A DNA stretch of 64,000 nucleotides from Methyloversatilis discipulorum. GTDB lineage: Bacteria; Pseudomonadota; Gammaproteobacteria; Burkholderiales; Rhodocyclaceae. Positions 10,648 to 14,230 of the stretch are shown one piece after another. The DNA is taken from positions 1,798,001 to 1,862,000 of the forward strand of contig NZ_ARVV01000001.1 in the NCBI RefSeq assembly GCF_000385375.1, read 5' to 3'. The notes beneath the pieces were generated by a model, which saw only the letters and a program-made list of their open reading frames with translations, was not told the origin of the DNA and did not search any database. Position 1 is the first letter of the stretch. Each line of letters opens with the position of its first letter. The position numbers and the translations under genes were made by a program.

Positions 10648-12314
10648 GTCTGATCAAACTGACCGGTGGCCGCGTGATCGATCCGGCCAACGGCGTGAAC
10701 GACCAGGTGCGCGACATCTACGTGCGCGACGGTCGCATCGTCGCCGGACCGAACGAGCACGAGAAGATCACCGCCGAGTACAACATCGCCGGCCGCATCG
10801 TCATGTCGGGTGCGATCGACATGCACAGCCATATCGGTGGCGGCAAGGTGAATATCGCGCGCGAAATGCTGCCGGAAGATCATCGCGGCGATCCGCTGGA
10901 GCGCACCGAACTGACCCGTTCGAGCTGCGGTCACGCTGCACCCGGCACGCTGGCGGCCGGTTATCGCTACGCCGAAATGGGCTACACGGCCGCCTTCGAG
11001 CCGGCCATCCTGCCGATCAACGCGCGCCAGGCACACATGGAAATGGGCGATACGCCCATTCTCGATACCGGCGGCTACGCCATGCTGGGCAGCGACGATT
11101 TCTTCCTGCGCATGATGGCGGCCAAGGAAGACCAGAAGGCGATCAACGACTACGTCGCCTGGACGCTGAACGCGACCCAGACGGTGGGCATCAAGATCGT
11201 GAACCCGGGCGGCATCTCCGCCTTCAAGTTCAACCAGCGCAAGCTCGACCTCGACGAACAGAACGCCTACTACGGCATCACGCCGCGGGAGATCGTCAAG
11301 GTGCTGTCGCGTGCGGTGCATGATCTCGGCGTGCCGAAGCCGCTGCACGTGCATGCCAGCAACCTCGGTGTGCCGGGCAACGTCGATACCACGCTGGGCA
11401 CGATGGACGCGGCCGAAGGCCTGCCCATCCACTTGACGCACATCCAGTTCCACAGCTACGGCACCGAGGGCGACCGCAAGTTTTCGAGTGCAGCGGCGCG
11501 CATTGCCGAGGCGATCAACCAGAAGAAGAACGTGACGGCCGACGTCGGCCAGATCCTGTTCGGCCAGACGGTGACCGCCTCCGGCGACAATATGGTGCAG
11601 TACCGCAACGCCGACCACGGCTCGCCGAAGAAGTCCGTCATCATGGACATCGAGTGCGACGCCGGCTGCGGCGTCGTGCCCTTCAAGTACAAGGACCAGA
11701 ACTTCGTCAATGCGCTGCAGTGGGCGATCGGCCTGGAAATCTTCCTGATGGTCGATGATCCGTGGCGTGTGTTCCTGACCACCGATCATCCGAACGGTGC
11801 GCCGTTCACGACCTATCCGCACCTGATCAAGCTGCTGATGGACCGCAGCTTCCGCAACGCGATGCTGGACACCATCAATCCGGACGCACGCGCGATGAGC
11901 AATCTGGCCGGTCTCGACCGCGAGTACTCGCTGTACGAGATCGCCATCATGACGCGCGCCGCGCCGGCGAAGCTGATCGGTCTGGCCGACCGCGGCCATC
12001 TGGCCCCGGGTGCCGCCGCCGACATCGTCGTCTACAAGGAGGACGCCGATCGCGAACGCATGTTCGAAAAGCCGGAACTGGTTTTCAAGGACGGCGAACT
12101 GGTGGTGCGCGACGGCAGGATCGTCAAGGTGGTGCGCGGCAACACGCACGCGGTGAAGCCGGAATTCGATCGCAGCATCGAGAAGAAGATCGAACCCTAC
12201 TTCCAGCGTTACCACTCGGTGCGCATGAACAATTTCAAGATCAGCGACGACGAACTGTGCGAGTGCGGCGGTGGCAGCAAGCTGATTGCCCATGCATGCA
12301 AGAAGCGGGGTTGA
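10644..12314 (+). CDS. fhcA: Formyltransferase/hydrolase complex subunit A
   Basis: A 556-residue amidohydrolase-fold subunit that hydrolyses the formyl group to formate. The metal-site motif DMHSHIGGGKVN lies near residue 61, and further histidine segments include LHVHASNLGVPGN and LTTDHPNGAPF. Length matches FhcA/FwdA. The GTG start overlaps the fhcB stop and follows a strong AGGAGGTGGGAG ribosome binding site, which decides the start against a much longer in-frame reading that would run through fhcB. fhcD follows after 4 bp. Confidence 0.97.
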   Translation: MSLIKLTGGRVIDPANGVNDQVRDIYVRDGRIVAGPNEHEKITAEYNIAGRIVMSGAIDMHSHIGGGKVNIAREMLPEDHRGDPLERTELTRSSCGHAAPGTLAAGYRYAEMGYTAAFEPAILPINARQAHMEMGDTPILDTGGYAMLGSDDFFLRMMAAKEDQKAINDYVAWTLNATQTVGIKIVNPGGISAFKFNQRKLDLDEQNAYYGITPREIVKVLSRAVHDLGVPKPLHVHASNLGVPGNVDTTLGTMDAAEGLPIHLTHIQFHSYGTEGDRKFSSAAARIAEAINQKKNVTADVGQILFGQTVTASGDNMVQYRNADHGSPKKSVIMDIECDAGCGVVPFKYKDQNFVNALQWAIGLEIFLMVDDPWRVFLTTDHPNGAPFTTYPHLIKLLMDRSFRNAMLDTINPDARAMSNLAGLDREYSLYEIAIMTRAAPAKLIGLADRGHLAPGAAADIVVYKEDADRERMFEKPELVFKDGELVVRDGRIVKVVRGNTHAVKPEFDRSIEKKIEPYFQRYHSVRMNNFKISDDELCECGGGSKLIAHACKKRG

Positions 12315-12318
12315 GCAG

Positions 12319-13215
12319 ATGATCATCAACGGTGTAGCGATCGACGACACTTTCGCCGAAGCATTCGGCATGCGGGGCATCCGCCTCATCATCACCGCGT
12401 ACAACGAAACCTGGGCGCTCAACTCGGCCAACGCGATGACCGGTTTCGCGACCTCGGTCATCGCCTGTGGCGCCGAAGCGGGCATCGAGCGCGTGCTGTC
12501 GCCGGAGGAGACGCCTGACGGTCGTCCGGGCGTGTCGGTGCTGGTGTTCGCGGTGTCGAGCAAGGAACTGATCAAGCAGATCGAGCGGCGCGTCGGCCAG
12601 TGCGTGCTGACCAGCCCGACCAGTGCCATCTTCGCCGGTCTGGACGAAGGCGATCCGGTGCCGCTGGGCAAGACGCTGCGCTATTTCGGCGACGGCTTCC
12701 AGACCTCGAAGCAGATCGGCGGCAAGCGCTACTGGCGCGTGCCGGTGATGGACGGCGAATTCCTCGTGCAGGACACCGCGCGCATGGTGAAGGCGGTCGG
12801 CGGCGGCAACTTCCTGGTGCTGGCCGACACCCAGGTGCAGGCGCTCGAAGCCTGCGAGGCGGCCATCCGAGAAATGCGCAAGCTGCCGGAAGTGGTGATG
12901 CCCTTCCCGGGCGGCGTCGTGCGTTCCGGTTCCAAGGTCGGTTCGAAATACAAGGCGCTGTCGGCTTCGACCAACGACGCCTTCTGCCCGACGCTGCGCG
13001 GCGCGACCAAGTCCGAACTGGACGAGCGCATCGGCGCCGTGCTCGAAATCGTCATCGACGGCCTGACCGACGCCTCGGTCAAGAAGGCGATGGAAGTCGG
13101 CATGCGCGAAGTCTGCAAGATCGGCGCGGCCGGCGGCATCCGCCGCCTGTCGGCCGGCAACTACGGCGGCAAGCTTGGCCAGTTCCAGTACCACCTGCGG
13201 GAGATCCTGTCATGA
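12319..13215 (+). CDS. fhcD: Formylmethanofuran:H4MPT formyltransferase
   Basis: A 298-residue formyltransferase (Ftr family) that moves the formyl group from formyl-H4MPT to the methanofuran-like carrier bound by FhcA. Recognised from INGVAIDDTFAEAFGMRGIRLIITA at the N-terminus, EEVMPFPGGVVRSGSKVGSKYK-like sequence near residue 195 and the C-terminal RLSAGNYGGKLGQFQYHL. The ATG at 12319 is 4 bp after fhcA; an upstream in-frame TTG would overlap fhcA. Its last 16 bases are repeated 203 bp downstream at the fhcC start. Confidence 0.97.
   Translation: MIINGVAIDDTFAEAFGMRGIRLIITAYNETWALNSANAMTGFATSVIACGAEAGIERVLSPEETPDGRPGVSVLVFAVSSKELIKQIERRVGQCVLTSPTSAIFAGLDEGDPVPLGKTLRYFGDGFQTSKQIGGKRYWRVPVMDGEFLVQDTARMVKAVGGGNFLVLADTQVQALEACEAAIREMRKLPEVVMPFPGGVVRSGSKVGSKYKALSASTNDAFCPTLRGATKSELDERIGAVLEIVIDGLTDASVKKAMEVGMREVCKIGAAGGIRRLSAGNYGGKLGQFQYHLREILS
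13200..13215 (+). repeat. Left copy of 16-bp direct repeat
   Basis: GGAGATCCTGTCATGA, covering the end of fhcD including its stop. It is identical to 13403-13418, and the two copies bracket a 187-bp insert. Confidence 0.9.
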
Positions 13216-13402
13216 CGAGGCCCCCACGCTCACTTCGTTGGCGGAGGGCCGGCCATGCAAAGCCACCCCGTTCGGCTGGCGCAGCACATGTGCTGCGAAA
13301 CCCCTGCCTCACCCCCGCCGAGGGGGCTGCGCTCGCCCTTGGGGCGGCCCGGCGGGCGGCGCGGCGCTCGTTTCATGCATTGCGAAATGCGCAACCCGTT
13401 CT
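13216..13402. mobile_element. 187-bp GC-rich palindromic insert between fhcD and fhcC
   Basis: A non-coding, hairpin-rich segment between two identical 16-bp direct repeats. It contains a perfect 16-bp palindrome (13281-13296, GCAGCACATGTGCTGC), CCCCCGCCGAGGGGG-type stems and a GCATT-GCGA-AATGC hairpin near 13377-13390. The C/G-block texture (CCCCCACGCTCACTTCGTT ... CTTGGGGCGGCCCGGCGGG) is like the intergenic palindromic elements common in betaproteobacteria, from memory. Removing it with one repeat copy restores a 4-bp ATGA overlap of fhcD and fhcC. Too small to encode a transposase, so it would have been moved by one acting in trans. Confidence 0.7.
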
Positions 13403-13418
13403 GGAGATCCTGTCATGA
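13403..13418 (+). repeat. Right copy of 16-bp direct repeat, containing the fhcC start
   Basis: Identical to 13200-13215. This copy supplies the GGAG ribosome binding site and the ATG of fhcC, so the downstream gene kept its translation signals after the insertion. Confidence 0.9.
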
Positions 13419-14230
13419 GTGCATTGGTACTCACCCTGCGCAACGCACCGGCCCAGCGCGTCGACGCCGGCGCCCTGAACCCGACCGCGCTGGCCGGCCT
13501 CTCGGTCGCCGACATCGCGGCGCTCACGCTGCAGATCGGCAAGCGCACGGTACGCGTCGACGAGGTGTTCTCGCTTGAGGGCGACGATACGGCGGACGTC
13601 GTGTTCCGTGGCGACTGCGGCAAGTTCGAGCGCATCGGTGCCGGCATGAAGTCGGGCCGGGTGACGGTCGAGGGCCATGCCGGTGCCTATGTCGGTCAGG
13701 GCATGCTCGGCGGCACCATCGTCATCGGCGGCAACGCGGGCGCCTTCTGTGCGACCGGCATGAAGGGCGGTCGCATCGAGGTGGCGGGCGACGTCGCTGA
13801 ATTTGCCGGCGGCGCGATTCCAGGTGAAATGAAGGGCATGGCCGGTGGTCTGCTGCTGGTCGGCGGCAACGCCGGCGAGCGCCTCGGCGACCGCATGCGC
13901 CGCGGCCAGATCCTCGTCAGCGGCAACGCGGGCGACTACTGCGGCGCGCGCATGATCGCCGGCACCATCGCGGTGGCCGGCACGGTCGGCGCCTACCCGG
14001 GCTACCTGATGAAGCGCGGCACGCTGATCGTGAACAGCCTGCCGGCGCAGATGCTGCCGGGCATGGTCGATTGCGGTCCGCACCGCCTCGGCTTCCTGAG
14101 CCTGCTGTACGCGAGCTGGAAGGGACTGCCGGGCGCCTTTGGCGCGCTCGATGCCAGCGCCTGCACGGTCCGCCGCTACATGGGCGACATGGGCGTGGTC
14201 GGCCGCGGCGAACTGCTGGTCCGCGCTTGA
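13415..14230 (+). CDS. fhcC: Formyltransferase/hydrolase complex subunit C
   Basis: A 271-residue subunit related to FwdC/FmdC and the glutamate synthase alpha C-terminal beta-helix. It shows the glycine-rich repeats expected of that fold, for example GAYVGQGMLGGTIVIGG, GRIEVAGDVAEFAGG and GDYCGARMIAGTIAVAG between about residues 85 and 195. It completes the Fhc complex. The ATG is within the right copy of the direct repeat; upstream in-frame codons run through the insert and are rejected. Its stop overlaps the next gene's TTG start (TTGA). Confidence 0.95.
   Translation: MSALVLTLRNAPAQRVDAGALNPTALAGLSVADIAALTLQIGKRTVRVDEVFSLEGDDTADVVFRGDCGKFERIGAGMKSGRVTVEGHAGAYVGQGMLGGTIVIGGNAGAFCATGMKGGRIEVAGDVAEFAGGAIPGEMKGMAGGLLLVGGNAGERLGDRMRRGQILVSGNAGDYCGARMIAGTIAVAGTVGAYPGYLMKRGTLIVNSLPAQMLPGMVDCGPHRLGFLSLLYASWKGLPGAFGALDASACTVRRYMGDMGVVGRGELLVRA

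Follow-up and report, generated by a model that had tools for sequence, protein, structure and literature searches.

A short intercistronic cassette between fhcD and fhcC of Methyloversatilis discipulorum and a dispersed family of candidate translated operon bridges

The fhcD-fhcC junction in the genus

In the 64-kb stretch of Methyloversatilis discipulorum DNA analyzed here (contig NZ_ARVV01000001.1; hereafter the window), the genes fhcD and fhcC are separated by a 187-nucleotide (nt) insert (Table 1). As noted in an earlier reading of the letters without database searches (the sequence-only reading), the insert is flanked by an exact 16-bp direct repeat, GGAGATCCTGTCATGA, at 13200 to 13215 and 13403 to 13418 (spacing, 203 nt). 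It is the only one of 18 repeated 16-mers in the window that recurs within 1000 nt, and its border-repeat score of 16 exceeds that of all 3868 mismatched-flank controls (maximum, 14). The duplication, which had been judged long, is thus confirmed as real at 16 bp. Both flanking reading frames are intact, again as proposed, and neither gene is damaged by the insert.

The genome itself (G000; 4.25 Mb) was compared with 12 Methyloversatilis congeners (G001 to G012). The spacer is not common to all relatives: 11 of the 12 (G002 to G012) have an empty junction, with one copy of the repeat and the ATGA overlap of fhcD and fhcC that had been suggested as the ancestral state, and only G001 is also filled. 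In seven of the 11 empty junctions, AA replaces TC ahead of ATGA. Judged from these comparisons, the insertion is real and fairly recent, and its duplication is real as well.

The sequence-only reading had further described the insert as noncoding and as having ended the translational coupling of the two genes. One frame, however, is open for 68 codons across the whole insert, beginning at the ATGA on its left (13212) and closing at the ATGA on its right (13418). The original fhcC ATG is now the start of this mini-open reading frame (mini-ORF), whose TGA overlaps the new fhcC ATG; because the mini-ORF spans ATGA to ATGA, both present junctions have the ancestral form. It retains the original fhcC ribosome-binding site, and fhcC is preceded by an identical copy of that site. 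The insert of G001 is shorter (fhcD-fhcC start-to-start distance of 134 nt versus 203 nt), and its mini-ORF of 45 codons likewise runs from ATGA to ATGA. The net difference of 69 nt is a multiple of three, and phase is preserved in both filled genomes despite it.

A loss of coupling is therefore not borne out: the mini-ORF is joined to both neighbors by 4-nt ATGA overlaps, and most other members of the family described below show the same bridging layout, which is kept between species despite a change in insert length. The layout for coupling is retained, translation and coupling are predicted, and the level of fhcC would presumably be unchanged by the insert. The predicted 68-codon product had no Pfam match at an E value of ≤1, no NCBIfam match at ≤0.01, and no relative in the protein database at ≤0.001 (13 candidates). 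An Rfam search gave no match within the window, and no exact inverted match of ≥6 nt is shared by the two insert ends within 29 nt of the borders.

Table 1. Features of the fhcD-fhcC junction (positions in the window)
Feature	Position	Strand	Remarks
fhcD, formylmethanofuran--H4MPT (tetrahydromethanopterin) formyltransferase	12286..13215	+	TIGR03119, 439.8 bits; Pfam FTR and FTR_C; longest ORF taken, start at 12286 putative; stop TGA at 13213-13215
Left copy of target duplication	13200..13215	+	End of fhcD, original fhcC ribosome-binding site, and ATG; identical to 13403-13418; present singly in 11 empty relatives
Bridging mini-ORF, 68 codons	13212..13418	+	Start in ATGA overlap with fhcD; stop in ATGA overlap with fhcC
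Module A (CCCCCACGCTCACTTCGTT...) and short leader	13216..13242	+	Also found leftmost in other copies, both in this genome and in relatives
Module B, dyad symmetric	13243..13313	+	G001 copy lacks most of module B
Module C with both arms of the family hairpin	13314..13363	+	Arms at ~13329-13338 and ~13354-13363; imperfect in this copy
Right tail of insert	13364..13402	+	Similar to tail of flgE-flgF copy (GCGCAACCCG...TGGAGA)
Right copy of target duplication	13403..13418	+	Present fhcC ribosome-binding site and ATG (13415-13417)
fhcC, formylmethanofuran dehydrogenase subunit C	13415..14230	+	TIGR03122, 252.2 bits

A dispersed family that bridges co-directional genes in phase

The proposed presence of a small dispersed element in the operon was borne out by searches of the insert against its own genome and relatives, which gave further copies. 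Its own genome holds at least 30 matches at an E value of ≤1, query included, and 16 at ≤3e-5 (40 of 52 candidates scored), several of them fragments of a single copy; none of the own-genome matches listed is a near-identical donor of the 39-nt right tail. With a strict 21-nt pattern and ≤1 mismatch, 103 matches were retrieved from 12 of the 13 genus genomes, while the reversed control gave 0. The first copy at a site begins a few bases past the upstream stop codon, and modules A, B, and C are variously combined at orthologous sites.

Gaps of 40 to 700 nt containing the element were surveyed at the genus loci with one dicodon gene finder and deduplicated. A site was scored as bridged when the mini-ORF ended within −13 to +20 nt of the downstream start. 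The 86 resulting gaps comprised 77 co-directional and 9 convergent ones. Modules A or C were present in 74 of the 77 co-directional gaps, all 74 in the sense orientation and 0 antisense, and a start codon lies near the upstream stop in 66 of these. An in-phase mini-ORF bridges 60 of the 66, compared with 12 and 13 in the other two phases; when the end must fall within −4 to +4 nt, the counts are 41 in phase versus 4 and 3. Counted per orthology group, 26.9 of 30 bridge in phase (5.2 and 3.7 otherwise). All three co-directional gaps with module B only pass as well (1 and 2 in the other phases).

As a control, 131 element-free gaps of 40 to 450 nt were taken from 464 kb of the same genome; 56 have a start codon, and 11 bridge in phase versus 10 and 13 otherwise. 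At element sites restricted to this range (≤450 nt), 58 of 64 bridge in phase. A phase preference in element gaps and none in control gaps indicates that phase is special to element-filled gaps (60/66 versus 11/56; Fisher test, 2e-16, uncorrected for descent). A first procedure gave a similar result. It began with 64 sites, from which two were dropped for want of a downstream frame and four for want of a start near the upstream stop; 46 of the remaining 58 bridged in phase, compared with 10 and 12 in the other two frames of the element. The control frames were here read from the element start, because ATGA puts a stop straight into one control frame.

The convergent gaps have a different makeup: three contain A/C modules, while six (L370, L371, L373, L377, L386, and L029) have module B only, versus 3 of 77 among co-directional gaps. 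Separately, a co-directional gap with another palindrome pair (L277:14535-14724; GTGGGAGCGGCGCC...GGCGTCGCTCCCAC) shows ATGA on its left and an in-phase ATGA on its right and is perhaps another bridging repeat.

Open frames of 17 to 196 codons occur at many element sites. At passing sites, 8 orthology groups use frame 0 of the element, 8 use frame 2, 3 use both, and one uses frame 1. Since different frames are used, even at orthologous sites, no single peptide is conserved; to judge from the reading frames, translation rather than a peptide seems to be kept in the family. The consensus unit is stop-free in every sense frame and has one stop in an antisense frame, and in 24 of 27 cases the tandem spacing of units is divisible by three.

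Beyond the genus, genomes were sampled by GTDB taxonomy, in which the order is Burkholderiales; NCBI places the genus in Nitrosomonadales. Matches at an E value of ≤0.001 occur in 89 of the 150 family genomes sampled, including four from this genus, and in 33 of the 300 order genomes sampled, including five from this family; some of the weakest matches could be due to chance. A strict module C pattern had 0 matches in 299 other genomes of the order, where looser searches did match. Among 26 loci from other genera of the family, 3 matches lie inside called genes and 20 of the remaining 23 gaps are co-directional; 18 gaps have a start codon close to the stop, of which 13 bridge in phase versus 2 and 4 in the other phases. 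For other families of the order (25 loci), the corresponding figures are 18 co-directional gaps, 16 with a start, and 8 in phase versus 1 and 2. The gaps of 13 passing cassettes outside the genus measure 75 to 87 nt; GGCGGGAGGCCTGACATG ends two of these cassettes, and variants of this sequence end most of the rest. One locus (L420; G112 C35, ~103660-103905) holds three tandem cassettes with a 28-amino-acid ORF each, chained by ATGA and followed by a 263-amino-acid ORF. As a possible component of the mobile unit itself, ATGA is present in this array and missing from tandem copies inside Methyloversatilis sites.

Other insertion sites and the family hairpin

Empty and filled alleles were also compared at other sites. 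The mraY-murD junction is filled in seven genomes (G000 to G005 and G007), with mini-ORFs of 74, 30, 17, 51, 74, 77, and 51 codons, respectively, every one of which overlaps murD by 4 nt. A diverged duplication of the murD start (54 to 62 nt) lies left of the element in G000, G003, G004, G005, and G007. The junction is empty in G008, G010, G011, and G012, as read from the sequence, and apparently so in G006 and G009, as judged from overlapping match coordinates; the empty form is TGATG or TAATG. The mraY-murD mini-ORF at L002/L061 (G000:C1:1086178-1086327) opens with some 20 MurD-like codons derived from the duplicated murD start.

Of nine genomes read at the L003 site, only G000 is filled, with a repeat of ~9 bp (GAACTGACA). 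In G001 and G004, which are empty, the matches on the two sides overlap by 12 bp, and G005 carries a different gene at this place. The empty site has a 4-nt gap between the genes, and the left ATGA is not part of it. The tail of the L003 insertion shares a second repeat, CAGTTCCTTCGGAACGGCCGTGC, with L014 (G000:C1:564612-564651). At the L156 site, G005 is filled, and six loci of five other genomes are without the element and show a TGATG overlap. In G005, the copy imported its own GGAG and stop/start, and no clear duplication is seen. At flgE-flgF, the element is present in G000 and G004 and absent from G001, G002, and G006, where the genes are 12 to 13 nt apart. Here, too, there is no clear duplication, and the imported tail resembles that of the fhcD-fhcC copy. 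The distributions conflict, as the fhcD-fhcC insertion is common to G000 and G001 and the flgE-flgF insertion to G000 and G004.

Duplications of ~9 bp (L003), 16 bp (fhcD-fhcC), and 54 to 62 bp (mraY-murD) indicate that duplication length is variable. In a border-repeat survey of 64 sites against the 3868 mismatched flanks, only fhcD-fhcC and four mraY-murD rows were clear; two rows were marginal (P values of 0.006 and 0.009), and the L003 site gave a P value of 0.064. A long target duplication general to the family is not supported by this survey.

The insert had also been called palindrome-rich. This does not hold for the insert as a whole, as the predicted RNA fold of 13195 to 13425 does not exceed dinucleotide shuffles in stability (z = −0.06), although one hairpin shows covariation across the family. 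The alignment comprised 36 cassettes, namely 35 of 39 matched loci, all from other genera, and the fhcD-fhcC copy. Four loci (L402, L404, L406, and L412) were left out by hand; by eye, three of them look paired and L406 does not. Compensatory changes occur at 10 of 10 pairs of a helix (helix 2) beside the stop/start, the innermost bases of which are fixed by the core pattern used to find the cassettes. Over both helices, 91.6% of cells pair, compared with 76.2% in shuffles and 49 to 57% in slid versions. The 3′ arm frequently contains GGGAGG (L431 is an exception), and the helix is imperfect in the fhcD-fhcC copy. The pairing data would fit a role at either the RNA or the DNA level.

Interpretation and relation to known repeats

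Taken together, the data suggest that the insert is a copy of a dispersed family of short intercistronic cassettes, mobile or once mobile, that act as translated operon bridges, a reading to which we assign a probability of about 85%. The sequences themselves show where and in which orientation the cassettes lie, the phase of their mini-ORFs, the empty sites and the duplication, and the retention of phase when insert length changes. A cassette would sit in the sense orientation immediately past the stop codon of the upstream gene, where a start codon overlapping or adjoining that stop would open a mini-ORF running through the cassette to a stop that overlaps or abuts the downstream start. Ribosomes ending fhcD would reinitiate on the mini-ORF, traverse the GC-rich insert, probably opening the hairpin as they pass, and reinitiate on fhcC, so that coupling is handed on. 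We infer both the translation of the mini-ORF and coupling as the selected trait. On insertion, the stop/start region may be duplicated to a variable extent or reused, with the surviving insertions being those in which both genes and the phase are intact.

Several points weigh against this reading. The rule fails at 6 of the 66 sites (L009, L096, L101, L122, L127, and L379), three of which miss the limit by 3 nt, and 8 of the 74 module A/C gaps have no start codon near the stop. Outside the family, 8 of the 16 loci from the order do not bridge in phase, although in some the called gap is not the cassette. Gene starts come from a simple, purpose-written gene finder, and L130 and L151 are co-directional by one version of it and convergent by the other. 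Sites are related by descent, so that per-site counts inflate independence, for which reason group counts are given alongside. Finally, unit lengths in multiples of three would alone preserve phase once a site is in phase.

A repetitive extragenic palindromic (REP) or bacterial interspersed mosaic element (BIME)-type palindrome that owes its spread to a RAYT (Y1) transposase and acts at mRNA 3′ ends or as a terminator would account for a hairpin with compensatory changes and for copies that come after stop codons, and Y1_Tnp matches are present in 11 of the 13 genus genomes. Of the two genomes without such a match, however, G006 has 3 pattern copies and G010 none. Under this explanation the open frame would be a by-product of high GC content, yet other gaps of the same GC-rich genome show no phase preference. 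Some sites also have border duplications, and all 74 co-directional module A/C gaps are in the sense orientation, whereas BIMEs alternate in orientation, according to PMC2817692. We thus consider this explanation improbable. A classical nonautonomous insertion element (miniature inverted-repeat transposable element), mobilized by a resident transposase whose stagger is long and fixed, fits the exact 16-bp duplication and clean empty site at fhcD-fhcC. It is in our estimate just as doubtful, given duplications of ~9, 16, and 54 to 62 bp elsewhere in the family and none clear at flgE-flgF or L156 of G005, the absence of clear border repeats from all but fhcD-fhcC and mraY-murD among 64 sites, and the lack of exact inverted matches of ≥6 nt between the outer 29 nt of the insert ends. 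Least probable of all is that the mini-ORFs encode a functional small protein selected as such. The many open frames are compatible with this, but the same DNA is read in different frames across sites, even orthologous ones, and the predicted fhcD-fhcC product has no Pfam, NCBIfam, or protein-database relative at the thresholds given above.

A broader extension of the bridge reading is offered tentatively, as a possibility we rate well below the reading itself: that the cassettes are order-wide mobile translational couplers. Each would consist of a start codon, a stop-free body, and often a hairpin whose 3′ arm carries a Shine-Dalgarno sequence beside the stop/start, such that only a translating ribosome opens the site of the next gene. 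Stop/start signals would be the places where recombination or template switching spreads the cassettes, in place of a transposase with a fixed stagger.

Mycobacterial interspersed repetitive units (MIRUs) were described by Supply et al. in 1997, according to PMC12548453. MIRUs are oriented as their neighboring genes, occur as tandem units, and have an ORF whose ends overlap both neighbors; to our knowledge, they lack dyad symmetry. They are the closest described system, and the working principle looks alike, but membership is not claimed, because dyad symmetry is at odds with what is known of MIRUs and the comparison is by description only. Both are short interspersed repeats between co-directional genes (77 of 86 gaps here), oriented as their neighbors (74 of 74 module A/C gaps here). 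The cassettes differ in their covarying hairpin (10 of 10 pairs in 36 cassettes), betaproteobacterial host, modular A/B/C makeup, and duplications of ~9 to 62 bp. According to PMC12548453, MIRUs are apparently mobile, insert at start codons, and contain an ORF coupled at −4 nt. In layout, this resembles the 41 of 66 mini-ORFs that end in phase within −4 to +4 nt and the ATGA at both ends at fhcD-fhcC. With regard to insertion at stop/start signals, the empty sites are mixed: ATGA (fhcD-fhcC), TGATG or TAATG (mraY-murD), and TGATG (L156), but gaps of 4 nt (L003) and 12 to 13 nt (flgE-flgF).

Other repeats are less similar. REP, REPIN, and BIME sequences with RAYTs (PMC2817692 and PMC3116915) are likewise short palindromic extragenic repeats, and Y1 transposase genes occur in 11 of 13 genomes here, but they differ from the present family in its uniformly sense orientation, start/stop overlaps at both ends, and retained phase. 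Rickettsia palindromic elements, ERIC, and YPAL are small repeats with open frames whose insertion in translated DNA is tolerated; in PMC2229807, they are described as in-frame gene fusions or as intergenic, whereas here a separate mini-ORF bridges two genes. The presumed translation mechanism is the same as in termination-reinitiation at ATGA/TGATG overlaps (PMC6728339 and PMC12548453). A synthetic nonsense ORF directly upstream can raise translation (PMC13255528); in contrast to such constructs and to coupled overlaps, the bridging ORF is here supplied by a natural repeat family. A literature search of titles and abstracts, with subscription papers mostly outside its reach, found no report of this family or of MIRU-like elements in the order.

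If the bridge reading is correct, a repeat can enter even the most compact parts of an operon, between overlapping genes of a central pathway, while retaining the layout needed for coupling. The MIRU strategy is thereby suggested in betaproteobacteria too, perhaps with an independent origin. The cassettes would offer natural, sequence-diverse, and length-variable candidates for the study of termination-reinitiation, and they caution that inserts assumed to be noncoding can be translated bridges.
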